Positions 3,220 through 60,495 of a stretch of 64,000 nucleotides of DNA are shown piece by piece. The position numbers and the translations under genes were made by a program. This stretch comes from Caenorhabditis elegans (Eukaryota; Nematoda; Chromadorea; Rhabditida; Rhabditidae). Where the stretch lies: the NCBI RefSeq assembly GCF_000002985.6, contig NC_003281.10, positions 5,208,001 to 5,272,000 of the forward strand. Reading direction: 5' to 3'. A model generated the notes under the pieces. It did no database searches and was not told the origin of the DNA. It saw only the letters and a list, made by a program, of their open reading frames with translations. Numbering within the stretch: position 1 is the stretch's first letter; the number at the start of each line of letters is the position of its first letter.

Positions 3220-3520
3220 ACCGAGCGTCGTGGCGGGCGCTTGTGAGTCAGCTTCTTGACGGTAGATAAGTGTGGATGGAGTGAGAGGAGGAGTCCTGTG
3301 TATGTCGTTGTCTACGTCGACCGAGCGTCCGTGCCAAGCGCTACGTCACCAGGGGATAACTGTCGGAAGGCGGTTAGTCCCGGGTGCATAAGGAGTCGTG
3401 GATGGTTCAGGACCGAAAGGTAGCAGACAAAAGCGACCGCGTGGTGCAGTGGCCGGACCGCGCTTGTGAGTTGACACACATACGCAGCCTTCTCGATACC
3501 TTCAGACCACTTATCATTTT
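3220..3520 (+). ncRNA. Signal recognition particle RNA (7SL)
   Basis: A GC-rich island of about 300 nt in AT-rich DNA with the landmarks of metazoan SRP RNA in the right order. The Alu-domain start has GTGGCGGGCGC (3230-3240) followed by TGTGAGTCAGC, matching the 7SL 5' fold. Helix 6 is a hairpin at 3358-3375 with a GGAA loop (3365-3368), fitting the GNAR rule for the SRP19 site. Helix 8 has CAGGACC, a GAAA loop (3415-3418) and GGTAGCAGACAAAA, the SRP54-binding loop signature. The strand after helix 8 (3430-3515) is broadly complementary to 3260-3345, as expected for helix 5. A T5 run follows at 3517-3521. The product scaffolds the particle that targets ribosomes to the ER. Ends are approximate by 5-10 nt. 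Confidence 0.88.
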
Positions 3521-4184: not shown

Positions 4185-7004
4185 TTAGTGTGGAACAGTT
4201 CCAACATTGTCAGTGAGAAATGGAACATTGAGATAATCACGAAGCCATACTTGTTCCGTTGGATTGTTACTCGTCCAGCCAGCAAGATAGATGTTATTGG
4301 CTGCTGCATCAGTTTTAAGGAAACTGAAAAAATGTTATTTTTTCGATTAGAAAGCTTGAAAAGATCTATTAAAATTACCTGCTGATATCATTAACATGAT
4401 AAAAAATCACATCGGATCCCAAAAACTTTGGCATAATTAATGAGCGTGCCAATCCAAAAACAAGAACATCAAGAACACTTGCAATTGCATTCAATGCTCC
4501 AGTAAATCTTGGAATCCTCGCTGCTTCATCAGTTGTACTCAATTCCCAGTTTCTCCACGTAAATCCAGTCAGAATCTTTGGATCCGCCATTTTCACTTTG
4601 TATGTATCAATTGGATTGAATCCAGAAACAAGAACTTTTGAGTAGAGATTATGAGTTTTCATTTGAATCACAAATTGTTTGAGAAGATTCTCATCGACAT
4701 TCTTCACATCCCAAATCATCATTATATCATTGGCAACGCAATATGAAACGGCTTCTTCAAATGTTGGCAGAGAAATGTTTGTTCCAGTGAAACGGAGTTT
4801 TCGAAATTCCGTGATATTCATTGTAGAAATGTCTTTGTCCACTCCAGTTACTCTCACTGAAATTATTGAATAAAGTTAGTTGATACTTTATAGGAATGGT
4901 TACTATGTATACTTTTTAAAGGCGCACACCTTTTTGCGCGGCCTCGATTTGAAGATATTCCGTTCATAGTGAGAACACCATCGTGTTTATGAGTGGAAAC
5001 TGATAAAAATTTGGCATTTGATTTCATAAAATAAATACTTTAACTCAAAAAAGAGGTCCAGTAGTCCTAAAACTTTCAATTTTCTGCCTCAATAAAATAT
5101 TGCGAATTTTAAAATAAATCAGAATTTTCTGTGACTAGTAACTAACTTCCGCTTCTTAAAAAATTATATGTCGTGATTTTATTCAAGCGTGGATAAATTA
5201 GCACAAAGTTCCACCAAAGTGGGAGAAAATTTCAATTAAAAAAATCACAATTCAACGAATCTAACCTGTGTTAGCATCATGACAAATAACTGGAACACCA
5301 TCCAATGTAATCTGTATATCCATTTCAGCCAATTGTCCTCCCTCACGCTTCACAGCACTAAATGCCTCTAAACTGTTCTCTGGTATATCATCATGTGCAC
5401 TTCCACGATGACCACCAATTTTCCAAGCAGAGAAGAATTGTGATTTGTGTGGTTCATTTGTGAGTTGTGGAATACGGAAAATGAAGAAAGCGATCATCAG
5501 AGCAATTGGAATAAACGCAAGAGTTACGATGATAACTCGGATTGTTGTGAATTTGAGAGCAAGAAGTGATAGAATATAAATTATTCCGACTATTATTCCC
5601 CAAGCAATGAACGTCAGCAGATCCATGTTCACCTGAAAATTTACTTTTTTCATAAAATGTTTTCGATTTTTGGATTTTCTGGAAAATCGAAAAAAGGTTT
5701 AGAAAATTTTGAAAAATTCAAATTTTGTTTATGTTAAGGAGAATAAAAAGAAACAATGTTTTCTTTTTTAAAACTTTTTTTAAGAAGAAAAGTAGAGAAG
5801 CTTTAAATATTTTTCGAAAAATGGAGGAAAATTTCCACAGCAATGAAAGTTTGAAATTACAGTACTCTTCAAGGCGCACACCTTTTCTCATTTAACAAAA
5901 ATTTGCCTCCTCGAGACCGGGTGCAGTTTTGATTTTTTTCATGAAAAATCGAAAAATTGAAAAACGAAAAAAATTTAATTCAAGAAAAATTAGTTTTTAA
6001 ACAAAATTTATGGTAAAAATACAGTTAGTGATATCCAAAATGTCTGAGCAAGCGTACAATATTCAAATTCCAGCCAAAATCCAAAACTCAGAACAACAAA
6101 AAAAACATTAAAATACCAAAGTATCATATCTATTTTTCGTGAGCTACAGAATAATAAAATCATTGAAGCCTAGGTGGTTTCTTTGCGTACGTGAGCTCAT
6201 TGACCGTAAGATTTCTTCTAAGAATTAAAAATAGTGAAATTTGGTAGGTTTGATCTTGAAAAAGGGTTGAGGTAGGGGCGTGAGATTTTGAAACGGAACT
6301 TTGTGGAAAAGTTTGGAAATGTTGTGAGAAATTATTCATAATTATATGAAAGAATTAATTTGAATTCGAAGAAAGAATTTATTTCAGAAATTTATCGGAA
6401 TTTTTAAACTAAATTTTTAGCATTTTTAGACATTTTTCAAAAACAATTTTCGCATTTTTTGGCTCAAAAGGCTTGAACCATGAATTTGAGAAATTGAAAA
6501 AAGTGAAAAATGCAAAAAAATTTTTTTCGGTATTTAGACATCACATAAATAACCTCATAACGGTTAAACTTTTCCAGATTGCGAAAAGATGCCGAAAATT
6601 TGTACTTTTCAATTTCCGGAAAGTAAATTGATTTAAAAAGCCGATAAAGATCGTTTCGTGGCGGACTTTTCATTTCCTATTAGAAACTGTAGAAAATTGG
6701 TTTTCATCGAATTTGACGGGAATTTGCAAGAAAAAAAAGCATCTGAAAGTTATGAAAAATTTGAAAGCAAGAATTATTTTCAGTTAACTTTTGGAATATT
6801 ACTTTTTATTGTAAATACTAATTTTTCAGATTTTTTTCAAAAATCAATTGTTTCTCTTACCCGATGTGGCTGGGTGACAAGCTTCTGAACATCAAAACTA
6901 TCCGTAATATCATCTTTTGATAACTGGGTCAGTTGTAGAAATTCTCGGCCGAATAATTGCAGTAGTGTACCCACCATCATTGAGTAGAATGTTCTCGTCC
7001 ACAT
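4185..7004 (-). CDS. GDE1-type glycerophosphodiester phosphodiesterase, membrane protein
   Basis: Four in-phase exons, 7004-6861, 5632-5266, 4856-4379 and 4323-4185, encode 375 residues. An N-terminal domain contributes two hydrophobic helices (roughly residues 53-75 and 82-104). The catalytic GDPD domain follows with GGHRGSAHDD, PENSLEAF, an E-x-D pair in AEMDIQITLDG, and VICHD, which are the metal and active-site residues of this family. The family hydrolyses glycerophosphodiesters, such as glycerophosphoinositol or lyso-phospholipids, to glycerol-3-phosphate (or lysophosphatidate) and an alcohol. The start at 7004 was chosen because TTTTTTCAG lies immediately before it and the exon joins the next in phase; an internal ATG at 5626 would lose 50 residues. 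Intron 1 is 1.2 kb and introns 1 and 2 contain single arms of the dispersed repeat. Length exceeds human GDE1 (331 aa) through the added N-terminus. Confidence 0.85.
4900..4965. repeat. Dispersed repeat arm in the phosphodiesterase intron 2
   Basis: TTTTTAAAGGCGCACACC followed by GGCCTCGA: one arm of the recurring element seen at 1135-1440, here alone and degraded. Confidence 0.5.
5858..5935. repeat. Dispersed repeat arm in the phosphodiesterase intron 1
   Basis: Contains ACAGTACTCTTCAAGG, CGCACACC, a TTTAACAAAAATTTG block and CTCGAGACCGGGT, in the reverse orientation relative to the arm at 1145-1235. No facing partner nearby. Confidence 0.6.
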
Positions 7005-9569: not shown

Positions 9570-11304
9570 ATTGAATGCATTAAGCTGATAGATTTTTTAA
9601 AGATCTGAAAACTTTAGAATGAAAAAATAGGCTAACATAAATTCTAAACAAATGCACCAAAATGCCAAAAGAGGACGAGAAGAAATAGGAGAATGCATTG
9701 AAATGAAAAGAGGATGAGCTGATGATTTATGGGCTTCACAGTAGTGAATTGGAAAGGGCAAAGAGTAGATAACTAATGTGGGAAGACATTGTTCAGAAAG
9801 GAGAACGGAGAAAATGTGCAATGGGCTTTTTACTATAAGTGAACTCATAATGAAGTTCAAAACTACGATGAGCTATTACCAAATGAGTCATATGCGGCTT
9901 AAGTTTTTTTTGGATAAATAATTAAAAATTCTGTGGCGAGCTTCTCAAGTTTAACTTGCTGATAAATGTAAAAGTGGATTAGACAAATTTAAAAGTTTAA
10001 AAACTGAAAGTATGCATTCAGAAAATTGGCAATTTACCAAAACGTTGACTGAAAAATTTTTGCAAATTCTAGTTTTTGAATTCGAATATAATATTCAGTC
10101 ATGTTATTGTAGGTCAAGCATGACTGATTATCATAATTAAATTCAGAATCTAGATTTTTTCAAAAATGTTCAATTAAATTTTTGGTAAATTGCCTTTTTT
10201 TTTTTGAAAAAATATAGAAGAAGAAGTATTGAGAGAATATTACTGCAGGTTCTGACATCTATAATTTTCACATAGAAACAATTGAAAAACAATGGAAACT
10301 TGAATTAACTTAGTAAATACAATTTTCCAAAACTCTGATATCTGGACGAATGTTGGCAAAAGCAGAGATATCTGATAAATTTAGGTTTTTTTTTCAAAAA
10401 TTGGAAAAATTATATCTCGAAAACGGGATTGAAAAATTGTGTTTGAAAAATTATAAATTGGAAGTTTCGACATTTGTTTTTCAAAAAAAAAAAAGCAGAA
10501 GTTGGTCATTTTTCTGAAAAATGAGTTGTGAAAATTGTAGACGGCTAATATTGTTTTTCAGCCTTGAATGGTACTCCGTTCTATTAAAACTAACAAAAAT
10601 TAATTTTTGATAATTTTCATTCAAAAAGCGTTGCGAGCTCTGTTTAGAATATTTTTGAAAAATCCGAAAATGAAAAACTCAAAAACCAGCCAAAACTCAA
10701 AAGATGCTTCCTCATATAAAACAAAGCGGTTCTGAAATTGGACAATTTGGCCTCATCTTTAGAATTGAGCGCTTAAACTTGGTAGAAAGACATTTCCGGG
10801 GAAAGAAGAAAGTCCTACTAGATGTGTGTGCTTGTTGCTGTTTTTGAATAATGATAGTTGGGAGAGCAGAGATGGGATGTCCCATGGGATCATAGAAGTC
10901 TCAGGGCTTGTCACGAAGAAGACTTTGTTAAAAGAAGGATAACAGAACAAGAAAAAGAAAAAGATATGGAGATTTTTGACGGATTTTTGAAAGATTCAAT
11001 GTGAAGTTTCGTTTTCCTTATTTATGTTTCCGTGTTTTCAAACCTTTTTCTCCACAAAAGGTAGGGTTTCTATGGTAGGACCGCCGCACTTTGAAAAATT
11101 AAATTACTGAAATCGAAAAAAAAAATCAGTGCGCCATTCATCAAGGTGTGATAGCAATGATATGTGCTAAATCATTTTTAAAACATTTAATAAAAACTGC
11201 AAAATGTTCATATATCGTGAACTTAAAATTATAAATAAATTTTAAAAAAACATAAACGTTTTCACAACTGTTTTAATTTATTTCCGAATATTTCAAATAG
11301 TAAA
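9570..11304. other. Non-coding stretch between the ZP gene and the H3-like gene
   Basis: 1.7 kb between divergently transcribed genes. It holds a 167-bp palindromic element (10028-10194) and pyrimidine-rich stretches at 9600-9860 and 10760-10950 on the minus strand. No gene supported. Confidence 0.55.
10028..10194. repeat. Palindromic (fold-back) element
   Basis: The ends are exact complements, GGCAATTTACCAAAA at 10028 and TTTTGGTAAATTGCC ending at 10194, and the arms stay largely complementary to a centre near 10110 (CAGTCATG at 10097-10104 facing CATGACTG). A similar end, TTTGGTAAATTGCC, occurs alone near 38599-38612. The structure is that of a small non-autonomous DNA transposon that is almost wholly inverted repeat. 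Confidence 0.7.
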
Positions 11305-12048
11305 ATGAGACGAGTTTCAATAAATTCTTTTCTAGAACCGGTGAGTTTTATTACAGGGGTTTTCCAACAGTTAATCGAATTTTTCAGAATTCTCCAAATG
11401 TTCCAAATCGTGTGACCATACCGGACGGTGATCTACGTCGAAACTCAGATGATACGGCAACTGATAGAATTTCGCTAACAAATCAACTAGGAAAATCTGC
11501 ATATTCAACAACTACAGAAGATTCGATTGATTCTGAAACTTCTGAAACTAGAATGGATTCATCTAGAACGTCTGAAATTTCCGGAAATGTAAAAGAGGAT
11601 CCGGTATCGGAAAATCAATATGTTCTAGAAAATTCTGAAAGTTCAGAAAGTATTGTCGTAGATCTTGAGATGCCTGGAATGACTCTTCGATCCAAGGCCA
11701 GTCCTCGAAAACGCTATATGTCTAAAAAAGAAAAAGATCTTAACGATGAAAAAAAAAACTTCAAGGACCTGGTTCTGACGATTGGCCAAAATCAAATTCA
11801 AGATCCTGATGAAGATTTCCAAATAACAAAAGAAGCAATTGATCTACTTCAATCGGAATCTGATAAAATTCTTCTGGAAATGTTCACATCTTCGAATGCA
11901 ATTGCAACTGCTGGTGAGAGGGATATTTTGACTGTAAGTTTCTTTTGATTTTAAACTATAGTCGTTACAATATTTTAAAATATTTCAGCCCACCGACATT
12001 CAGACGGCTCGACACATTCAAATGATCATGAAAAAATACAAGAAGTGA
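11305..12048 (+). CDS. Divergent histone H3-like protein with a long acidic N-terminal tail
   Basis: Exons 11305-11340, 11388-11933 and 11989-12048 give 213 residues. Residues ~137-213 follow the H3 histone fold: FKDLVLTIGQ aligns with H3 alphaN (FQRLVREIAQ), AIDLLQSESDKILLEMF aligns with the alpha2 helix (ALQEASEAYLVGLF), and ILTPTDIQTARHI aligns with IMPKDIQLARRI before a basic end (KKYKK). The preceding 136 residues are not an H3 tail: they are Ser/Thr/Glu/Asp-rich with basic patches (RSKASPRKRYMSKKEK at ~113-128), and lack the usual ARTKQ start. Such long, unrelated tails are typical of CENP-A-class variants, but the loop-1 region here is not lengthened, so centromere identity is not claimed. 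Worm H3-like orphan genes are known. The start is the first ATG in frame; a short first exon of 12 codons precedes a 47-nt intron. Confidence 0.8.
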
Positions 12049-12406
12049 AATTTTTCCAATTGAACTTACGGATAATAAATATTATTATTTGATCACAAAC
12101 GTTGTAAATTCCTACAGTACTCCAACCGTACGATTTCATTATTTATACTATGAATGAAACTGTCTCACATCGCGAAAACGTGACTGTATCACAAATCGCG
12201 GAAAAGAGGTGGAAGGCGTGCAAGTTTGAGACAAGGCCCGCTTGGAAAATTTTCCTGCCTACCGTGTCAGAGTTAGTATGATTTGATTCTTTTCAACCTC
12301 TGACAACTTTCAAATCATTATTGGATGCTCTTGAACTTTTTGATGTAAACTCACACCCGAATAAAAAAAAACAACAATGCTTAAACAATTTTATTCAATA
12401 TCCTTT
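12049..12406. other. Intergenic region between convergent genes
   Basis: 3' flanks of the H3-like gene (plus) and the small Cys-rich gene (minus). A GC-richer patch at 12165-12285 includes CATCGCGAAAACGTGACTG and a CTGCCTACCGTG motif resembling other dispersed repeats; no gene recognised. Confidence 0.45.
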
Positions 12407-12744
12407 TCAATATCTGTTCAACAAACGACAGGTTCCTTTAGAACAAACATATCCTCCTCCAAGTCCTTGACAATCTCTCGAAGTGTCACAATCACTGGAT
12501 TCCACTTTCTTTGCCACGTCAAATCCATATTGTGTACGGAATCTTCTCTGATTTGCATACGGATCCTTTCTCACACATCTTCCATTCCAACAGACTTGTC
12601 CCGAAGTATAACGATACTCATCATAACAGCTCAAATAAGCAGAAGTTTCAAGGATCAGAAAAGCCAAAAGAGTGAATAGGGCCTGGAAAAAAGTGTTTTT
12701 GCAGGAATAAACTGAAGGAAACTTACCAAATTCAAATATTTCAT
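12407..12744 (-). CDS. Small secreted cysteine-rich protein
   Basis: Exon 12744-12727 (six codons) and exon 12682-12407 encode 97 residues. A signal peptide spans about residues 1-21 (MKYLNLALFTLLAFLILETSA). The mature part of about 76 residues has seven cysteines, with spacings C-x11-C-x3-C in the first half and C-x5-C-x8-C-x4-C in the second. The second half resembles EB-like or dickkopf-like Cys modules of worm secreted proteins, but no family can be assigned. An odd number of cysteines leaves one unpaired or used for dimerisation. The short first exon followed by a GTAAGT donor and an acceptor at 12683-12685 is a typical worm structure. Confidence 0.72.
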
Positions 12745-15700
12745 GGCGATTAATCTGTTTGTTTCCCTACTTTTCCTTCTGTTTTATAGAGTTTCAGATA
12801 CTGTAGAATTATGCAAATTGCCAACTTTTCTTTAAAGGAATGCCGAATTTTATTCATTGTTTTATTTCAAGGAAACGATCAGAAATGAAAAATGTGAGTC
12901 ATCACAAATGGGGAATTATCTGCAACTCTTATATTTTATTCTACATTCTACAGAATTGGGGGTTCATAATACGCTCAGGTAGAAAAATGAGAAAGTAAAT
13001 TCTCTGAGTGCACATATCAAAAAAGAAGTGGCGCCTACAAGGAAAGGAAGTCAAAATAGTTCTAGACTTAAAAACGAGATCTATAAAATTTCAACGTTTA
13101 GGCTAGTTTAGACCACAACTATTTTATCAGTAGATCCGAACTGAAAACGCTGTCTGAAATTTTTAAGTACATTTTTTACTAATTTTATAAAAAAGGTTTA
13201 TAGAATAGCTCCAACCGCAGATTTACACAAAGTTTTATTTTGAAGTTCTTTAGGAAAAATAGTTTATTGAAGAGTATTTCGGAAGGTTTTTTCATCCAAT
13301 TGTCAACCAATAAAGTTTCAGACTGAAAAATAACAGTTTCCAAAAAATTAACTGAGAATATTTCAACAATCCCAAAAAAAAACAATTAATTCTGCAATTT
13401 TTAGTCGAATAAGTTAATGTTCTAGCAATAAGACCACGTTTCCCAATTTTCCATTTTATAACCAATTTTACTTTTTTTTTCAGAGTTCTAGTTTCCATCA
13501 AATTTTCTTTGATAAATATTTTTAAAAACTATTTCCCAAACCAACTCAATTCATTTTTTACAACAAAAAGCCTCCATTTGAAAAATTTCCAGTTTCAAGG
13601 AAATATTTTTAAAAAACTTGAAATCTTTCATATCCTACCATATTTAACATCCCTTATTCCCTTGTCAAAAATACCTTTGCTATCATTTTCTTTGCTCGAT
13701 GACCATCAAAATGCTTTTATATTTTTTCCCCTTTTTTGTCTGTGTAACCATCAGTTTACATATCTCTCACTAACTTTTTTCTCTCATCTTCTTCTTTTTT
13801 CAAAGAATGCGCCCTTCATCAAATAAATACCCACGACTCCATTTTTATGTCTTCTAGTTAAAACCACACCCATTTATTGTGAGGTTTAAAATGGAAAGAA
13901 ATATTTATTCTGATTTCACAAAACTCCAATTTCTTCCGCTTTTCGATTTTATCAGAAATGTTTAAATTTCGGAAGACTCTTATCATAAGTTTTCTCAAAT
14001 ATGAAACAAAAGTAAACAAGTAATCATTTCATTTTTTTATTTGCTTCGAACTTTGAACCTTTCAATAGAAATATTTGTGTGGATTCGGATTGGAACAAAA
14101 ATAGCAAATATTTTGGAAAATGAATATAGTATTGGATTCTTTTGGTGAAGAGCAATTCAAGCGAACAAAAATAGATGAACAGAAAAATAAGAAGACATCA
14201 ATGATCAGAAAGAGATGCAGTAAACAACTCAAGAGCATTTTAAGAATAAGAAAGCTTATCGAGTATTTGAATTTGTGACTTGAAATCAGGAGATTTATAG
14301 GGTTTATTTTTTCCTGACTAACTGTGAGCTCAGGTTTCAACTCATATCTAATAGCTGCCATTTTCCAAGCACTAAAGTCTTGAAATCTTTCCAAACGCCC
14401 TTGTTTTCTGCTCACTTCTTCCGTTTTTCTTGAGAGGTCATTTACTCAAAAGCTTCATCCTCTTCTTCTCTTTGCCTAACCCCTTTCATGACCTATCCAA
14501 CCAACAATTTCACATTTCCACCAGATGTTGTTGATGTGTATAGTACATGTGTTGGAGGGTCTGCTCTCATTGAATTTCAGTAATTTGCCACCTTGTAATC
14601 CTAGTAAATAATTTAGACGTAGTTAATGACCCATCTAGATAATTTATCGATAAACCCGTAGGCGCTTCAGAAATACGAGCCTAGGTAGAAGTTTTGTAAG
14701 TTTTTGGTTGAAACTGGAATACCAGGTGGGCCTGTAGGCTATTCATATATTGGTAATACATAGACTTGTCTCAGAAAGTTTTTTATTTCCTATCGCAGCT
14801 ATTAAACTATTCAACTTGCCTGTCGTAGTAACTCTCGCCCGTTTTCTTCCCTTTTCGCTCTGCGAAGTTTCGAACTTTGAAGAACCAATATTGGTTGTTG
14901 TTTACCCTTACTCTTTCCATCGCCACAACTCATTCGCTCGGCGCCATCTCTGTCCTCTGTTTTCTCGAATTCTCTTCTATTTCGTATATTCCGTCTATTT
15001 GAAACAGGCAAACACAAACACAAACATTTATTCAAAAGAAGGGGACAAGACGGTCAGATCACAGTTATGGCGTTGTTGTAGAGTACGGGGGACATTTCAC
15101 TATTGAGTTCTCTTTTTTGATTTTTCGACATTTGAAAAGTACAGCGTTTTGTTTGAGAGCATGTCTACGGTTTTTCGATTTTAGAATTCTTTAAGCTTGA
15201 ACTTTCCGAATTTTTTCCCCGTAACTTACCTGAATTTGCCCATGACATTTTAAACGCAATTTGGAAAAGAAAATGAACCTATGTATGTATTTAATTTTGA
15301 GTGTCTTTTTATTTTTGGGAAAAATGCAACTGTTTTAATATGGTACTTGGTCCCGAACTGCTGTGAAAAAAGTATGTACCTTTAAAGAATACAGTTAGAG
15401 AGTGGGAACTACCGTACTCCTCTAAGAAGCACAATTTCTTTTTAAATCTTTGGCCGTTTTCCAACATAAATGTTGTAACTTTAAATCTAAACATTCATAT
15501 TGTTCTTTTTTGAATTCAAACAAAATAACGTTTGCAACATGTGTATAGTCCGTTCTCTCTGTTTTCCAATTGTTCCCCAAAAAGGTCAATTCATCTGAAC
15601 ATGCTACTACATCAAGACCAATCCGTTTCTTGAACTTTTTTATTCTCCTCTCCATTAATAAAATCCCATTTAATGTACAGTTATTAACTTCCTATACTTT

Positions 15701-51032: not shown

Positions 51033-52394
51033 ATGGCTGAAAAAGCTGAAAATCTTCCATCTTCTTCGGCCGAAGCTTCAGAAGAGCCATCACCTCAAAC
51101 TGGACCAAATGTGAATCAAAAACCATCGATTTTGGTTCTTGGAATGGCTGGTTCTGGAAAAACGACATTTGTTCAGGTAACTTTCATTCAATTTTGAGAG
51201 TTTTCAAACATTACTATTTTCAGCGTCTCACAGCATTCCTACATGCTCGTAAAACACCTCCATATGTGATTAATCTGGATCCGGCAGTTAGCAAAGTACC
51301 TTATCCAGTGAATGTTGACATTCGAGATACTGTGAAATACAAGGAAGTTATGAAAGAATTCGGAATGGGACCAAATGGAGCAATTATGACATGTCTTAAC
51401 CTGATGTGTACTCGTTTTGATAAAGTAATTGAGTTGATTAATAAGAGATCTTCTGATTTCTCAGTTTGTCTTCTTGATACTCCTGGACAAATTGAAGCAT
51501 TCACTTGGAGTGCTAGTGGATCTATTATCACTGATTCATTGGCAAGTAGCCATCCCACGGTAAGGGATTTTGATTTATGAAATCTGCTTGAAATGAAAAA
51601 AGATTCTAATAAATTTTTGACTTTTAAACATTTTTTACAGTTATATTTGGTCTATTTTCTATCATTAAAAGCAAAATGAAAAGTCGATTCTACTCCATAT
51701 TTATTAATTTCGACTTTTCAGGTGGTAATGTACATTGTGGATTCCGCTCGTGCCACAAATCCAACTACATTCATGTCCAATATGCTCTACGCATGTTCCA
51801 TTCTCTACCGTACCAAACTTCCATTCATTGTCGTTTTCAACAAAGCTGATATTGTCAAACCAACATTTGCACTCAAATGGATGCAAGATTTCGAAAGATT
51901 TGATGAAGCTTTAGAGGATGCCAGAAGCAGTTATATGAATGATTTGAGTCGTTCATTGAGTCTCGTTCTTGATGAATTCTATTGCGGACTGAAAACAGGT
52001 TTTTATTCGAAATAAAACCTTTTTTAAATAATAAATTTCAGTTTGCGTCAGTTCTGCAACTGGAGAAGGATTCGAAGATGTAATGACAGCAATCGATGAA
52101 AGTGTTGAAGCATACAAAAAAGAATATGTTCCAATGTATGAAAAAGTGTTGGCTGAGAAAAAACTATTGGATGAGGAGGAGAGAAAGAAAAGAGATGAAG
52201 AGGTAATTGTAGTAATTTAATTCTGATTATCTTCAAATTTTCAGACTCTGAAAGGAAAAGCTGTTCACGACCTGAACAAAGTCGCCAATCCCGACGAATT
52301 TCTGGAGTCGGAGTTGAATTCAAAAATCGATAGAATTCATTTGGGCGGAGTCGATGAAGAGAATGAGGAGGATGCTGAACTCGAAAGATCCTGA
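51033..52394 (+). CDS. gop-2: GPN1-family GTPase (GPN-loop)
   Basis: Exons 51033-51176, 51224-51559, 51722-51998, 52042-52202 and 52245-52394 encode 355 residues. After ~30 Ser/Glu/Pro-rich residues comes the P-loop GMAGSGKTT (residues 37-45), the family-defining GPN tripeptide at 97-99 ([11 protein letters not shown]), DTPGQIE (switch II) and NKADIV (base recognition). The C-terminus is a charged helix rich in Glu and Lys. GPN1 (XAB1/MBDin) shuttles between cytoplasm and nucleus and is needed for assembly and nuclear import of RNA polymerase II. Gene 2 of the gro-1 operon. All nucleotide-binding motifs are intact. Confidence 0.95.
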
Positions 52395-52707
52395 TTTTCT
52401 TTTTGTTTTTGAATTTTTATTCTATTTTGATCCCTGTTTACTTCTTATTGTTCTCATTTTGTTGCGTTGTTTTACATTTTACTCATTTTTGCATAAACTT
52501 GTTGCAAAAATCAATATAATTTTTGATCTGGAAATGGTTTTAAACCTTAACCTTTCATATATTAATAATTTTTTTTCAAAAAAACGTTCTAAAAAGGTTC
52601 CTCATTTTTTCAATATAGGAAATTTTGAAGATCTTTTCCAAAAATGAGGTTCTTCGCTTGAAAAGCCAACATTTAAAACCTTTTTTTTTCCAGAAACCTA
52701 GTGGTTA
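52395..52707 (+). other. gop-2/gop-3 intercistronic region
   Basis: T-rich 3' UTR of gop-2; a strong acceptor (T9 then CCAG, ending 52693) lies 14 bases before the gop-3 ATG. Confidence 0.6.
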
Positions 52708-55635
52708 ATGTCTGAAAAGACGTTCCACAAGGCACAGACCATCCGTGCAAAGGCATCCGGAGTGCCTTCAATCGTCGAAGCTGTACAGTTTCATGGAGTT
52801 CGCATCACAAAAAACGATGCTTTGGTTAAGGAGGTACTACCCAAATTTCAAAATGTTGCACAATTCAATTGAAAATATAAATTGTGAATTAAATTCAACT
52901 TACATGTTTTTTCAGGTTTCCGAATTATACAGAAGTAAAAATCTAGATGAACTTGTTCATAACTCTCATCTGGCGGCTCGTCATCTTCAAGAAGTTGGAT
53001 TAATGGATAATGCAGTTGCTCTAATTGATACATCTCCAAGCTCAAATGAAGGATATGTTGTCAATTTCCTAGTTCGAGAACCAAAATCATTCACTGCTGG
53101 AGTCAAAGCAGGAGTTTCAACGAATGGAGATGCGGATGTCAGTTTAAATGCCGGAAAACAAAGTGTTGGAGGACGAGGAGAGGCAATCAATACACAGTAT
53201 ACATATACTGTAAAGGTAAGGACGAGAGTTGGCACTGCCAGTTTGGCATGTTCTCCCAATATTTTTTAATTATAAAATTTGGAAGTATAAAAAAATGTTT
53301 GCTTCATCTAAAAATAGCCTTTTTCACATGAAAAAAATTGAAAAAAAGTGCTCAAAAATTTCAGAAATTTCCAATTTCCAAACAATTTTGGAGAACTTTC
53401 AAAAATTTTTCCAACTGAAATTAAAGCTATATTCTATCACTAAATTTTATACAAGTCTTAAGAGAAAATGATGAAGTGGCTCATTTTGTAGAATTTCCTA
53501 AAAAATAATATCTTCAGGGCGATCACTGCTTCAACATTTCCGCAATCAAACCATTCCTGGGATGGCAAAAATATTCGAATGTATCAGCGACTCTATACCG
53601 TTCACTTGCACATATGCCATGGAATCAATCAGATGTTGATGAGAATGCAGCTGTTCTTGCATATAATGGACAACTATGGAATCAAAAGCTTTTGCATCAA
53701 GTCAAATTGAATGCGGTAAAGTATTATAAGTGTTTTGTCCAAACTATGATACAGTTCTTCAGATATGGAGAACACTTCGTGCCACTCGAGATGCCGCATT
53801 TTCAGTTCGTGAACAAGCCGGACACACTTTGAAATTCTCGTTGGAGAATGCTGTAGCTGTTGATACAAGAGATAGACCTATTCTTGCAAGTCGTGGAATT
53901 CTTGGTAAGAGTAACAACGACTATTTTTAAAAAATATCTTTTTCGAAAAAATTACGAACGAAAAAAAACTGTATTATGTACCCAAACGCGAAATTTTGCA
54001 GTTCTTGCGCGTTCTTGTTGATAAAAAATATGTAAAAAATTGGAAAAACTACGAAAAGTCGATAAAAATTCCGTACCAACCGGAAAATGTTTCATTAATT
54101 TCTCTTCCTTTTTTCAGCTCGTTTTGCTCAAGAGTACGCAGGAGTATTTGGTGATGCGTCATTTGTGAAGAATACATTAGATTTACAGGTAACAACCTTA
54201 TTTCAACAATTATTTCAAATTCTATTAAAAATAATTCCAGGCAGCTGCCCCTCTTCCACTCGGTTTCATTCTTGCCGCCTCATTCCAAGCGAAACATTTG
54301 AAAGGACTCGGAGATCGAGAAGTTCATATTTTGGATAGATGTTATTTGGGTGGACAACAGGATGTTCGAGGATTTGGTCTGAATACTATTGGAGTGAGTT
54401 TTAACGAAATTCTCTTGAAAGTCAAATAATCATTTTCAGGTTAAAGCAGATAACAGTTGTCTTGGAGGAGGTGCTTCACTTGCTGGTGTCGTTCATTTGT
54501 ATCGGCCATTGATTCCACCAAATATGCTATTTGCACACGCATTCCTTGCATCTGGAAGTGTTGCATCAGTTCATTCCAAAAATTTGGTGCAACAATTACA
54601 GGATACTCAACGAGTATCAGCCGGATTTGGTGAGTTTGAAATTTAGGAAACATTTGGATGAAATGTATTTTTTAAAAATAGATCAGCTTTATTTATTTGA
54701 AAAAAAACGCTCATTAATCAATAGTGATAGTTCCATTCTGAGTTTCTTCTTCTTCCTCGCGGAATACAATTTTTGACTTGTTCGCATCCTTCTTGTGTAC
54801 TTTGTCACCAATCTTCTCATCAACTAAATCTCGAAACTGAAAAAATTTCAAAATTATTCCAAAAAATATTGATGCAGACTACCTTTTTGATGGCTTCTGG
54901 TACGTTTCTAGCGTCGAATGGATTGGCTCCTCCAATAATTAAAGTCTCGTTCGGTAGTTTAGCCAGACGGACGGTGTGCTTCAACATTTTTCTAATTAAT
55001 CTATTTCAATTCAAGTCACTCACTCTCTCTTGACGTCTTCTTCTATATTCCAAGAACTCTGCAGAAAATCCGTGTCCGCCTTGTGTGTTTCTAGTTGGCG
55101 TCGGAGGATTCACGGGTCCAAGACGAATGGATGTCTAAAAAATGTTATATTTTTGCATAAAGAAAACACCATACCTTCACCACTTTTTGAGTTGTGGGCG
55201 TTCTGAATGGAATTGATCGATTATTATTGCTCTTTCTTGATTTGCTTCTATCAGCTGCGTAATGAGGTGTTCTAAAGATCAGCTTTAATTCATTTGGACA
55301 AGTGCTCCTCTAATAAACTTACCCTGTACTCATTTTTGAAACGATTTACGATGATAAGATTGAAAGTGGAAGTTAAATTTAGTCTTTCAAAGTTGAAATA
55401 AAATCTTCATAAATAAATAAATTTAAATGAAAGATTAAATAAATTAACGTTCACGTAGTTAAAAAAATAATTTAAATCTTAACTTCTAATAAAAAATCTC
55501 AATTTTCCAGGACTCGCATTCGTGTTCAAAAGTATTTTCCGGCTGGAACTCAACTACACGTATCCATTGAAATATGTGCTCGGCGATTCATTGCTCGGTG
55601 GATTCCATATTGGAGCTGGTGTCAACTTCTTGTAG
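52708..55635 (+). CDS. gop-3: SAM50/Omp85-family outer-membrane assembly protein
   Basis: Eight exons (52708-52833, 52916-53215, 53518-53715, 53763-53904, 54118-54188, 54241-54393, 54440-54629, 55511-55635) encode 434 residues. Residues ~20-115 resemble a single POTRA-like domain; the rest is a beta-barrel of the bacterial surface antigen family: [34 protein letters not shown] (the conserved Omp85 barrel signature) and a C-terminal strand ending in [12 protein letters not shown] with a final aromatic-aliphatic pair. SAM50 inserts beta-barrel proteins into the mitochondrial outer membrane. The last intron is 881 bp, far longer than the others, and contains a minus-strand gene (54714-55333). 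Gene 3 of the gro-1 operon. Confidence 0.94.
54714..55333 (-). CDS. Uncharacterised small gene nested in gop-3 intron 7
   Basis: Minus-strand exons 55333-55323 (MSTG), 55271-55175 and 55134-55024 join in phase, coding a basic, Pro/Thr-rich segment ([19 protein letters not shown], then [15 protein letters not shown]). Exons 54978-54883 and 54836-54714 also join in phase and code [20 protein letters not shown] to [13 protein letters not shown]. The link between these parts is a 45-nt candidate intron (55023-54979) with a good GTGAGT donor but an AAG acceptor that is not the worm consensus. It gives 145 residues. If the intron is not spliced, the first part reads on to a stop at 55006 (78 aa) and the second could start at an ATG at 54987 (75 aa). 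No domain recognised. Good splice sites and no frame breaks support a real gene. Confidence 0.65.
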
Positions 55636-55948
55636 AGATTAATTGGATGCAAGCACCCCTCAAAAAGATTTTTTTGAAAAACGATAAATTCACAGAATTT
55701 CAGTTCTTTTTCTCCCCCTTTTATTGTTATTTTCATCGTAATGCTGTGCTAGAAGTCAGAGTAAATATGAGTTTTTTTGTGTTCTAGGAATTCCATTTTT
55801 TCAGGAAGCAAATTTAATAAAAATTATCGAATTTCTTGCTCTAAAGATGTTGTACATTTTATGGAAATGTTCGTATAGTAATTCGAACACTTTATATTTC
55901 TCGTTTTAAAACTGTCGGTGTTTTATAGTAAACTATCTTCAGAAAAAA
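55636..55948 (+). other. gop-3/hap-1 intercistronic region
   Basis: 3' UTR of gop-3 with AATAAA at 55816-55821 (TTTAATAAAAATT context), then a TATCTTCAG acceptor ending at 55942, six bases before the hap-1 ATG. Confidence 0.6.
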
Positions 55949-56902
55949 ATGAGCCTACGAAAAATCAATTTCGTAACTGGAAACGTGAAGAAGCTTGAAG
56001 AAGTCAAGGCTATTTTGAAGAATTTCGAGGTAAAATATATTTGATATTATTCGAACGCGAAATTTTGCGCCAAAAGTACGATGCCTGGTCTCAACACGAC
56101 AATATTTTGTTAAATACAAACGAATGTGCGCCTTCAAAGAAAAGTTTCAATCTTTCGTTGCCGTGGAGATATTTTTAGAGTTTTTGTTTAAATTATATAT
56201 TTGTCGTATCGAAACCGGGTACCGTAATCAATCAATTAAATATTTTCAGGTTTCAAACGTGGATGTCGATTTGGATGAATTCCAAGGAGAACCCGAATTT
56301 ATTGCCGAAAGAAAGTGCCGTGAGGCTGTTGAAGCTGTAAAAGGGCCCGTTTTGGTATGGAAAATTGTATTTGTTCTAAAAATTGTCAAATTTCAGGTCG
56401 AAGACACAAGTTTATGCTTCAACGCAATGGGCGGTCTTCCTGGACCTTATATCAAGTGGTTTTTGAAGAATTTGAAACCAGAAGGACTACATAATATGCT
56501 AGGTAAATATTTTAATTTTTTGAAAAAACTTATTTTTCAGCCGGATTTTCTGACAAAACCGCCTATGCTCAATGCATCTTTGCGTACACTGAAGGACTCG
56601 GAAAACCTATTCATGTATTTGCTGGTATGATTTTTTGAATTTAATTCTTTAATTTTATATGTTAATTTAGTTGTTTCATTCCTCAATTTATGAGAGATTT
56701 TTTTTTCAATTTTTCTATTTCAGGAAAATGTCCTGGTCAAATTGTTGCTCCACGTGGTGATACTGCTTTTGGATGGGATCCATGCTTCCAGCCAGATGGT
56801 TTTAAAGAAACATTCGGAGAAATGGATAAAGATGTAAAAAATGAAATTTCTCATCGTGCAAAGGCTCTGGAACTCCTCAAGGAATATTTTCAGAATAATT
56901 AA
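55949..56902 (+). CDS. hap-1: Inosine triphosphate pyrophosphatase (HAM1 family)
   Basis: Exons 55949-56029, 56250-56354, 56397-56502, 56541-56624 and 56724-56902 encode 184 residues, the family's usual size. Signature elements: [14 protein letters not shown] at the N-terminus (substrate phosphate loop), the metal-binding E in [57 protein letters not shown] and the terminal SHRAKAL motif. The enzyme hydrolyses ITP, dITP and XTP to the monophosphates, so keeping deaminated purines out of nucleic acids. Intron 1 holds an inverted repeat pair. Gene 4 of the gro-1 operon; 233 bp before gro-1. Confidence 0.96.
56070..56225. repeat. Inverted repeat pair in hap-1 intron 1
   Basis: Arm 1 (56080-56145) has GATGCCTGGTCTCAACACGA, TTTTGTTAAATAC and GTGCGCCTTC; the partial arm 2 (56199-56225) has TTTGTCGTATCGAAACC and GGGTACCG in the opposite orientation. 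Confidence 0.6.
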
Positions 56903-57103
56903 ATTATTTTTTCTCATCTATGCAATTTCTTGAAAATTTGTTAAGTTTCCGTTGTTATGCATTTGCTTTTATTTAAAAAAAAAAGAATATTTTTACATTA
57001 ATATTAGATATGAGAAAAGAGTAATTTCTGGATTTTAACCTTCCTACAAAAGAATATTTATATTTTTTGTATGATTTTTTAAAAATATCGTCAGGAAATA
57101 ATA

Positions 57104-57144
57104 ACATTTCAGATATACCCTGAACTCTACAGTTTATGATATTC
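57104..57144 (+). promoter_or_regulatory. Two candidate trans-splice acceptors around the first gro-1 ATG
   Basis: ACATTTCAG ends at 57112, upstream of the ATG at 57136. GATATTCAG ends at 57144, inside the coding region just after that ATG. Use of the first keeps the 14-residue mitochondrial leader; use of the second leaves the ATG at 57178 as the first. The rest of the 56903-57135 spacer is AT-rich 3' UTR DNA of hap-1. Confidence 0.55.
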
Positions 57145-59130
57145 AGGAAATTTCTGAATTTTCTGAAACCTTACAAAATGCGAACGGATCCGATTATTTT
57201 CGTGATTGGGTGCACTGGAACCGGGAAAAGTGATCTTGGAGTGGCAATTGCAAAGAAATATGGAGGAGAGGTGATTAGTGTAGATTCAATGCAATTTTAT
57301 AAAGGTACATGGGTTTTGTTTCAATTTTAAATTAATTAATTTTCGTTTTTCAGGACTTGACATTGCCACGAATAAGATAACGGAAGAAGAATCTGAAGGG
57401 ATTCAACATCATATGATGTCATTTTTGAATCCATCTGAATCATCATCTTATAATGTACATAGTTTCCGAGAAGTCACGTTGGATCTTATTAAAGTGCTTA
57501 ATTCGCCACTTTTTGAACTTGATCCTAATTTTCATAATTTTCAGAAAATCCGCGCCCGTTCAAAAATTCCTGTAATTGTCGGAGGAACCACTTATTATGC
57601 TGAAAGTGTCCTTTATGAGAATAATCTGATTGAAACCAACACTTCAGATGACGTGGATTCCAAATCGAGAACATCATCAGAATCGTCATCTGAAGACACT
57701 GAAGAAGGAATTAGTAATCAAGAATTATGGGATGAATTGAAAAAAATCGACGAAAAATCAGCACTTCTTCTACATCCAAATAATCGTTATCGAGTACAGA
57801 GAGCATTGCAAATTTTCAGAGAAACTGGTAATTGATTTGCAAATTTCCAGATTAAAAACAAATCAAGTAAAGTTTTTTGCAGGAATCCGAAAAAGTGAAC
57901 TTGTTGAAAAACAGAAATCAGATGAAACTGTTGATTTGGGTGGACGACTACGATTTGATAATTCTTTAGTTATTTTTATGGATGCAACACCTGAAGTTTT
58001 AGAAGAAAGACTTGATGGAAGAGTTGATAAAATGATTAAATTGGGTTTGAAGAATGAATTGATCGAGTTTTATAACGAGGTAAATATTTGAATTTTTCCA
58101 GAAAAAAAAAGAAAATTTTTTATTATTTTGTTTTTTTTTCATTCTTTACTATTTTCCAAAAAAGTTTAAACTTTTGAAAACTGTTCAGAAAATGTTCGTG
58201 TATTTATTTTAGCTTACTGAGGCATTATTTCATTGTGATTTTTACTATACTCTATAAACTAAATTTTCAGCACGCCGAGTACATAAATCACAGCAAATAT
58301 GGTGTCATGCAATGTATTGGTCTTAAAGAATTCGTTCCATGGCTCAATTTGGACCCATCAGAAAGAGATACACTCAATGGGGATAAATTGTTCAAGCAAG
58401 GGTAATTTAAATTTATTTTCAATTTTTATAAATTCCAAGCTATTTTCAGATGCGATGATGTGAAGCTTCACACTCGACAATATGCACGGCGCCAGAGACG
58501 GTGGTATCGATCGAGACTTTTAAAACGGTCGGATGGTGATCGGGTATGTTGATTTTAAAAAAATTGAATTTTTAAAGAACTTTTTTACTAAATTAACAAA
58601 GTTATTGGCTGAAAATGGCTGAAAATTATAGTAAAACTAATCAAAAAAATTGAAATTTTGAATTAAAGTCATAAAGTGACGACCAGAAAATTAAAAAAAA
58701 ACATTTTTCTATTTTAATTAATTCACTCTACTTCACTTTAAAAATAATTTTCAGAAAATGGCAAGTACAAAAATGCTGGATACATCTGACAAGTACCGAA
58801 TAATTAGTGATGGAATGGACATTGTTGATCAATGGATGAATGGAATCGATCTATTTGAAGATGTAAAATTTCACAAATTCTAAAATTTCCGAATCACAAA
58901 TTAAAATTTCTACAGATCTCCACAGACACCAATCCAATTCTAAAAGGGTCCGATGCAAATATTCTGCTGAATTGTGAAATCTGTAATATTTCAATGACTG
59001 GAAAAGATAATTGGTTTGTTTCAATACATATTATAATTTCGAAATGAATTTTTTCAGGCAGAAACATATCGATGGGAAAAAGCACAAGCATCATGCTAAG
59101 CAAAAGAAATTGGCAGAGACTCGCACATAA
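57136..59130 (+). CDS. gro-1: tRNA isopentenyltransferase (dimethylallyl-tRNA transferase)
   Basis: Nine exons (57136-57304, 57354-57493, 57545-57827, 57883-58079, 58271-58401, 58450-58543, 58755-58862, 58916-59013, 59058-59130) encode 430 residues. The P-loop GCTGTGKS (25-32) binds dimethylallyl diphosphate; [15 protein letters not shown] follows, as in MiaA/MOD5/TRIT1, and GGTTYYAES and [10 protein letters not shown] belong to the tRNA-binding face. A C2H2 finger CEIC...H-x5-H closes the eukaryotic C-terminus. It modifies A37 of tRNAs reading UNN codons. Residues 1-14 ([14 protein letters not shown]) are basic and hydrophobic, a mitochondrial leader; Met15 (57178) starts a form without it. 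Known gro-1 mutants are slow-growing and long-lived. Last gene of the operon. Confidence 0.96.
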
Positions 59131-59870
59131 GACGCTATATTTATTTTTTGTTAACTTAAATTATTTTTGTTGTTGATTGTTCTCTAAATAAAAAAACAGC
59201 TCAGAGAGAAGATTAGGCGCTCGTCCACATCTCCGACGATAGTCAACCCGAACGAAGGGAACTATCTTTAATTGTCAGTGATGACGTCATGTCGTCAAGA
59301 ACTCGTCATAGCTGTGAGAATTGAACCATTATAGATTTGGACATTAGTTTAGGTTATATCCAGTACACTAAATGGTACATGATAGACAGTGTACATTTAC
59401 AGATTTATAGATTGTCTCAGTGACTAGTTACCGGAAGAGGAGAGGAGAACATGTGGCGATGTCTTTTGGATCGATATTATTCCGTCTGAAAATTGTTCAC
59501 TAGGGGGACTGCCGATTACCACTTCACATGACGGAACATGTTAGTTAAAATATTGGCTTTTATACACATTTTCAAAATAGCACCTGTATTAGAATATTCA
59601 AGAAAAACCTATTCCATGTTATTGCTCCACGAGCAGAAATGCGATACACTGTGTTGCATTCGTAAGTGTTTACCATAAATGTTACCTTATTAATATCAAA
59701 TAGATAAGAAAAAGCATGTAGAAGATATAATCACGTGTGTCAATCGACCTTCTCCACCCATTTTTGATTGTTTAGATGGTTAGGTACCCGCTAAAAAAAG
59801 AATAATATAAAAAGGAAAAGACGAACAATTTGATTGATAATTCATTTGATTGTTGAGAAGAACTAGAAGA
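59131..59870. other. Spacer between gro-1 and the 74-aa orphan gene
   Basis: AATAAA at 59186-59191 for gro-1, then DNA that is less AT-rich. A perfect CRE palindrome TGACGTCA is at 59282-59289 and a TATA-like TAATATAAAAAGG at 59804-59816, so the next gene probably has its own promoter rather than belonging to the operon. Confidence 0.55.
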
Positions 59871-60495
59871 ATGGACAAATCGACCAAAGATTTTATGGAT
59901 TTGAAGAAGATTGGTGGTGACGATGAAAGGGAGCGACGTTTCAGTGATGGTTTGTTCTTTTTTAAATGAAAACTATATGTTGATTAATTGCTGTATTAAC
60001 CCTGAGAATTTACCCAGATTTTTGTCAAAAATACAGTGCCCGGTCTCGATACGACAAATGTTTGTGAATGGTGTGTACCTTTGAAGAGTACTGTAGATTG
60101 TCAACAAAAGAAAATATGTTTTACAATTAAATTTCAACAAAATAGAAAAATCAATGAAAATTCCGCAGAAACACAAGTTTCTAACTACAATACTCTTTAA
60201 AGTCGCACACCTTTTCGAATTGAACAAATGTTTGTCGTTTCGAGACCGGACGCCTTAGTTTGGTGTAAAAATCGTAAGGTTTTGCGTCTCGGTAATATAT
60301 TTCAGGTAATTTTCCCCTCTAAAGTTATTGATATTATAAAAATTTTCAGCATCTGATACATCAATGGATTGTCACATGGAATCTATCGGAAGTCGTCGCC
60401 GTGACAGTTTAATCGAACAATTCCGCGATTTTTTGAACCGATCAATGGATTTTAGTGTCAAGATTGATGATCCATTTGAAAAAGAAATGTATTAA
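59871..60495 (+). CDS. Uncharacterised 74-residue charged protein
   Basis: Exons 59871-59949 and 60350-60495 join in phase (GAT G|CA). The product is highly charged, with KIGGDDERERRFSDASDTS and IGSRRRDSLIEQFRDFLNRS; the second block could form an amphipathic helix, and RRRDS and RRFSD are potential basophilic kinase sites. There is no signal peptide, membrane segment or known domain. A TATA-like box about 60 bp upstream and a consensus TTTTCAG acceptor support a real gene. The 400-nt intron is mostly an inverted repeat pair. Function unknown. Confidence 0.68.
60025..60260. repeat. Inverted repeat pair filling an intron
   Basis: Arm 1 (60030-60105): CAGTGCCCGGTCTCGATACG, ACAAATGTTTGTGAATGG and TGTGTACCTTTGAAGAG, then TACTGTAG. 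Arm 2 (60188-60255): CAATACTCTTTAAAGTCGCA, then AACAAATGTTTGTCGTTTCG and AGACCGG. This is the best-preserved facing pair of the family in the window, in the intron of the 74-aa gene. Confidence 0.7.

Follow-up and report, generated by a model that had tools for sequence, protein, structure and literature searches.

ZC155.2 of Caenorhabditis elegans encodes a divergent H3-family protein, possibly a non-nucleosomal H3 mimic

The locus and its neighbours

The window analysed here is a stretch of 64,000 nucleotides of C. elegans chromosome III (C3:5208001-5272000). The gene under study lies on its forward strand at positions 11305-12048 and is almost certainly ZC155.2, since its neighbours match chromosome III and ZC155.2 is listed in print as "Protein harbouring core histone domains" (PMC3498369). 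Twenty open reading frames were scanned, and 12 of them gave a match over the cutoff. Among the neighbours that agree with chromosome III are these two:

3220-3517 (+): metazoan SRP RNA (Rfam, 248.6 bits)
within 4378-5698 (-): exons of a glycerophosphodiester phosphodiesterase (ORF scan)

An SRP RNA bears the name ZC155.8 in PMC4180458, and ZC155.4 is given as a GDE1 orthologue in PMC9648848. Further neighbouring exons in the window belong to an annexin, ATP synthase, PRMT5, MRP-S26, a class I tRNA synthetase, a Ham1-type protein and an IPP-transferase. Exons of ATP_bind_1, the Ham1-type protein and the IPP-transferase follow each other on the same strand at 51050-57832 (+), a run that fits the gro-1 operon. 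Rfam also identified snoU6-47 at 59196-59314 (-) with 114.3 bits; its SNORD36 match at 59939-60010 (+) is marginal (31.2 bits, gathering score 30). Convergent with ZC155.2, a small Cys-rich open reading frame with a leader-like stretch is found at 12410-12766 (-); its match to the EB module stays below the cutoff (17.7 vs 24.3 bits).

Gene structure and transcript

The coordinates given in a preliminary description of this DNA, made from the sequence alone, proved correct: the ATG lies at 11305 and the stop codon ends at 12048. Three exons encode 213 amino acids.

11305-11340 (+): exon 1, residues 1-12 (MRRVSINSFLEP); GT donor at 11341, junction in frame
11388-11933 (+): exon 2, residues 13-194; open frame, TTTTTCAG acceptor ending at 11387, GTAAGT donor at 11934
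11989-12048 (+): exon 3, residues 195-213 and stop; alpha3 and a lysine-rich C-terminus
12074-12079 (+): AATAAA poly(A) signal, 3' of the stop codon

Exon 2 encodes, in this order, an acidic Ser/Thr-rich tail, a basic linker, alpha1, loop 1, alpha2 and loop 2. The two introns, 11341-11387 (47 nt) and 11934-11988 (55 nt), are of the GT-AG type; if both borders of the second intron were moved by one base, the protein would stay identical but the GT-AG borders would be lost. Exon 2 is held by an open frame of 214 codons (11304-11945), a length matched in none of 2000 shuffles of 10800-12800; a chance reading frame was rejected on this basis. Its codon score is the highest of the six frames, yet weak in absolute terms (-0.161, a value reached by 3.3% of 3000 stretches drawn at random from the window).

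Replication-dependent histone genes end in a 3' stem-loop instead of a poly(A) signal. No such feature was found at ZC155.2, which carries the AATAAA listed above: the Rfam search of 10500-13000 (E<=10) did not match the histone 3' stem-loop, and its seven matches all lay well under their gathering scores.

An H3-type histone fold

Approximately residues 125-206 of ZC155.2 correspond by sequence to an H3-type histone fold, the larger part of which is encoded in exon 2:

11760-11933 (+): histone fold, alpha1, loop 1, alpha2 and loop 2 (residues 137-194; Pfam, PDB match, alignment)

The earlier proposal that residues 137-213 resemble H3 is borne out by the Pfam Histone family (31.4 bits, cutoff 26.4, E 2.5e-7); the other Pfam matches listed, whether obtained with the whole protein or with the fold, were SF3A2, DUF1931 and AF_0924, all under their cutoffs. 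A search of the PDB gave 151 distinct chains at E<=10, and the best 60 of these 151 were all H3-type or histone-domain chains, with a top E value of 7.1e-4. Profiles built from the histones of the same genome discriminate between the classes: the combined H3, CenH3 and F20D6.9 profile scored 39.7 bits, CenH3 34.2, H3 24.1 and F20D6.9 15.3, as against 5.0 for H2B, -0.6 for H4 and -1.4 for H2A. In this comparison with H3 and CENP-A, proposed in the preliminary description, ZC155.2 thus scores with the H3 class and nearest to the C. elegans CenH3s. The best of 4909 scored shuffles reached 11.2 bits with the combined profile, and no shuffle attained the scores of the combined, CenH3, H3 or F20D6.9 profiles; the H2B score was attained by 27 of 4836 and the H2A score by 2346 of 4399 scored shuffles. 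An H2A-type fold was rejected on the difference between -1.4 and 39.7 bits, which also contradicts a table on nematode epigenetics in which ZC155.2 is filed under H2A (PMC5934874).

In the alignment, the segment FKDLVLTIGQ, formerly labelled alphaN, falls on H3 FQRLVREIAQ and is therefore alpha1; the alphaN label was rejected. AlphaN itself would be expected at about residues 113-133, where the similarity is degenerate. Exon 3 contributes PTDIQTARHI, which lines up with H3 PKDIQLARRI, and the remark that the H3 Arg pair before the C-terminal end is altered proved correct (R128-R129 reads R-H).

Searched against its own genome, ZC155.2 matched 26 places at E<=10, two of them ZC155.2 itself. The top other matches were C3:9434797 (E 1.8e-4), C3:9615454 (E 0.0025) and C3:4058375 (E 0.004), and the weaker ones coincide with places also found by Pfam Histone, save C5:18224062 and C6:2456700. 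A genome scan with Pfam Histone, which runs per exon and scores first-look candidates only, gave 87 matches at E<=10; the ZC155.2 locus was not among them, though the protein alone passes the cutoff. Eleven pattern matches were obtained in viral contigs, with no relative of ZC155.2 among them. A structure predicted for exon-2 residues 122-194 alone, hence without alpha3, was poor (pLDDT 59.8, pTM 0.28).

Relation to CenH3 and other H3 proteins

Compared with one protein at a time (phmmer), ZC155.2 scored 30.3 bits with CPAR-1, 29.2 with HCP-3, 25.5 with the H3 of locus L005, 22.2 with H3.3, 19.8 with H3, 16.4 with the H3 of locus L025 and 15.8 with F20D6.9; the top of 5000 shuffles in any run was 13.2 bits. 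Similarly, blastp aligned it with HCP-3 (36% over 83 columns, E 1e-10), CPAR-1 (33% over 82, E 3e-10) and F20D6.9 (32% over 56, E 6e-7); none of the four H3s gave a blastp match. Identities amount to 28/80 positions for HCP-3, 27/80 for CPAR-1 and 20-25/77 for H3 and H3.3. Nine residues are common to ZC155.2 and CenH3 but not H3, five to ZC155.2 and H3 but not CenH3. A loop 1 longer than that of H3 is a criterion for CenH3, and this loop spans 20 residues in ZC155.2, 19 in HCP-3 and CPAR-1, and 16 in five other H3-family proteins. Trees of eight and nine sequences placed ZC155.2 with CenH3, both with weak ultrafast support (77 and 65) and with a very long ZC155.2 branch of 1.7-1.8 substitutions per site. 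On these scores, ZC155.2 is an H3-family member that within its own genome appears closest to the CenH3s HCP-3 and CPAR-1, a placement to which long-branch effects may contribute. Among the options raised initially, the class scores and the weak tree support thus speak for an H3 or CENP-A-class relative, and the TAF or NF-Y type found no Pfam match.

HCP-3 and CPAR-1 share with ZC155.2 the H3 fold, the long loop 1 and residues such as the Ile at H3 position C110. They differ in retaining six of seven basic contacts (two of seven in ZC155.2), H113 and the RR pair, and in their introns: by frame reading, HCP-3 has an intron between alphaN and alpha1, whereas ZC155.2 is interrupted before alpha3. 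In two H3.3-type genes, read in the same manner, the intron lies at the end of alpha1 or within alpha2. F20D6.9 (D6H3) is, like ZC155.2, a divergent C. elegans H3-like gene, but has the loop length of H3, 7/13 DNA-contact identities, a recognisable alphaN and a short tail. With H3 and H3.3, ZC155.2 shares the register of alpha1, alpha2 and alpha3 as well as R116, P121, D123, I124, Q125 and R128; it differs from them by its lack of an H3-like tail and by R69D, R72L, R83Q, H113A, K115E and T118I.

DNA-contact face, core and tetramer positions

The contrasts between H3 DNA-contact and core positions given here were drawn post hoc. Among 13 positions at or after residue 63 that contact DNA in H3, ZC155.2 is identical to H3 at only one, compared with nine in HCP-3, eight in CPAR-1 and seven in F20D6.9. 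At the seven basic contact sites, ZC155.2 has E K D L Q E R, with two sites kept and three occupied by acidic residues; HCP-3, CPAR-1 and F20D6.9 keep 5-6 of the seven. Most of the basic residues with which a nucleosomal H3 contacts DNA in alpha1, loop 1 and loop 2 are thus missing from ZC155.2. At 22 core positions, on the other hand, 13 are identical to H3, and 17 are hydrophobic as against 20 in H3. This core list is an initial list of 27 without positions 61, 62, 75 and two overlapping ones (65 and 84), a choice that favoured the contrast: Fisher's test of the 1/13 DNA positions against the core gave p = 0.004 for 22 positions, 0.012 for 25 and 0.015 for 27. Set against the 64 other positions of the fold (21 identical), p rises to 0.094, and with H3.3 as reference (2/13 vs 23/64) to 0.20. 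The wider first lists gave 4/21 DNA vs 13/27 core positions (p = 0.067), and F20D6.9 behaved likewise (p = 0.038), whereas HCP-3 and CPAR-1 lacked the contrast in every version (p = 0.38-1.0). The loss of DNA-contact residues, as read from the alignment, is real; that it exceeds the general divergence of the protein is only suggestive, because p runs from 0.004 to 0.20 depending on the list used.

At the positions of the tetramer bundle, ZC155.2 has 5/12 identities to H3, HCP-3 and F20D6.9 seven each and CPAR-1 six. Tetramer loss is therefore weak evidence, the three divergent relatives reaching 6-7. H3-H3 contact residues changed in ZC155.2 are H113A, L126T and R129H, and the R116/D123 pair is retained. 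The overall charge of the fold is mildly acidic only (12 K/R and 16 D/E in 86 residues). Position 118 is Ile in ZC155.2; in H3, T118I is a SIN mutation, with which nucleosomes slide without SWI/SNF and chromatin is loosened (PMC4798946).

The N-terminal tail

Two short elements of the tail were recorded:

11646-11672 (+): ESIVVDLEM (residues 99-107), a possible motif of SUMO-interacting type within acidic, Ser-rich sequence (motif scan)
11688-11729 (+): basic stretch RSKASPRKRYMSKK (residues 113-126), a candidate nuclear localisation signal or putative alphaN remnant

The 136-residue tail had been described as acidic and Ser-rich. This characterisation is accurate for residues 1-112 (21 D/E, 10 K/R and 30 S/T) and fails for residues 113-136, which are basic (10 K/R, 4 D/E); the net charge of residues 106-135 is +5. 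Equivalents of K4, K9 and K27 are indeed missing, residues 1-112 containing two lysines and the alignment showing no H3-like tail. ESIVVDLEM resembles a SUMO-interacting motif. Since 1.4% of 100,000 shuffled tails carry such a [VIL]3[DE][VIL] run, we regard it as a lead only.

Published observations on ZC155.2

ZC155.2 is already annotated but uncharacterised; in the openly licensed literature, no paper devoted to the protein was found by gene or cosmid name. GFP driven by its promoter is seen in neurons only, those of the ventral cord motor type among them, and the transcript is neuron-enriched 2.8-fold by one of two amplification methods; the same study, which as a rule scored this reporter in L2 larvae, labels ZC155.2 a "putative nucleosome assembly factor" (PMC2263045). 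In a valproate study, RNAi of ZC155.2 suppressed the induced arrest, opposite to the H3.3 genes his-71, his-72 and his-74, which are listed there as synthetic lethal with valproate; that study checked some of its genes by mutants and gives the ZC155.2 effect from RNAi (PMC3498369). ZC155.2 is also among the nhr-62-regulated genes under dietary restriction (PMC3723528). The passages on H3 gene lists in PMC10081851 do not name it.

A possible H3 mimic and its alternatives

The best reading of these observations is that ZC155.2 is a non-canonical H3-type subunit rather than an ordinary nucleosomal H3. Beyond this, we tentatively propose, with a probability of roughly 35%, that this divergent H3-family protein works outside the nucleosome as a mimic of H3 and against the deposition of H3/H3.3, for the most part in neurons. 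According to this proposal, ZC155.2 would fold together with H4 or with some other histone-fold partner, and the heterodimer would not form a stable DNA-wrapping tetramer. A protein that pairs in this way without stably wrapping DNA would mimic H3 or regulate how H3-H4 is handled and would not be a building block: it might redirect or hold H4 or H3 chaperones and in this way counteract the deposition of H3/H3.3, chiefly in neurons, with the tail possibly supplying targeting or chaperone-like contacts. The reading is favoured by the changed DNA contacts, the Ile of the T118I type and the paucity of tail lysines (two). It is weakened by the tetramer count, the mildly acidic fold, the enrichment seen by one of two methods and the poor model of residues 122-194. 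The neuronal reporter and a valproate effect opposite to that of H3.3 fit the reading without proving it, and a reporter confined to neurons does not suggest a mitotic role.

ZC155.2 could instead be a fast-evolving CenH3 duplicate that still serves as a centromeric or nucleosomal histone, comparable to hcp-3L, the short-lived paralogues known from Caenorhabditis; ten independent hcp-3 duplications have been published (PMC9577544). HCP-3 and CPAR-1 are its closest relatives, loop 1 is long, and the DNA-contact loss does not clearly exceed general divergence; all this favours such a duplicate. We nevertheless consider it unlikely: the folds of published hcp-3L proteins are 69-100% identical to hcp-3 (PMC9577544) and that of ZC155.2 matches HCP-3 at 28/80 positions, the alphaN-alpha1 intron of HCP-3 is missing in ZC155.2 and the intron before alpha3 in HCP-3, most DNA contacts are altered, and the reporter is neuron-only. 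Relaxed constraint on a decaying H3 or CenH3 copy that lacks a fixed function would account for the very long branch, the weak codon score and the DNA-position changes that do not clearly exceed those of the rest of the fold (p = 0.094). An intact frame with intact splice sites, the largely hydrophobic core (17/22 vs 20 in H3), the neuronal reporter and the reported RNAi effect make decay, too, rather improbable.

Still less probable in our view is a subunit of a non-nucleosomal complex of the TAF, NF-Y, CHRAC or DNA polymerase epsilon type, derived from H3 or converged on it. Altered DNA-contact residues combined with a mostly retained hydrophobic core would suit such a subunit, as would the weak DUF1931 match (15.6 bits for the whole protein and 18.5 for the fold, cutoff 21.8). 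The similarity is, however, clearly H3-specific, and no TAF, NF-Y or CENP-T/S/X family appears in the Pfam result, although HMMER filtering removes the majority of matches beyond about 0.1. The boldest reading, to which we give very little credence, derives from published work on dendrites that contain CENP-C and KMN without CENP-A. In the sensory neurons of C. elegans, CENP-C(HCP-4) and KMN subunits reach the dendrites, tagged CENP-A(HCP-3) and KNL-2 not being among the proteins seen there. NEFR-1, newly named as the HJURP orthologue, was formerly described as a neuronal protein (PMC13001451). ZC155.2 might then be a neuronal, non-chromatin CENP-A-like platform without DNA binding that helps to position CENP-C and the KMN kinetochore network in developing neurons. 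The two were scored at different stages, the ZC155.2 reporter typically in L2 larvae and dendritic KMN in embryos.

Histone variants are usually viewed as a means of altering nucleosomes. Should the H3-mimic reading be confirmed, a small, well-studied animal would offer a naturally occurring mimic of H3. The gene also directs attention to diverged H3-like genes outside the CenH3 survey, which states that highly diverged H3-like genes were ignored and in which the name "ZC155" is absent (PMC9577544).

Other H3-type loci

A PDB search with CPAR-1 returned H3 chains. At the CPAR-1 locus (L003, 1105-1710), the presumed alphaN-alpha1 intron contains no stop codon and is in frame with the fold, so that an intron-retained form could be translatable; at the HCP-3 locus, the frame closes in the corresponding intron. 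On C2 near 13.18 Mb (L026, 1357-1755), an H3 fold is found in frame behind a 5' stretch unlike an H3 tail, with Phe104 replaced by Leu. This locus is, as read from its frame, a divergent or rearranged H3 copy.
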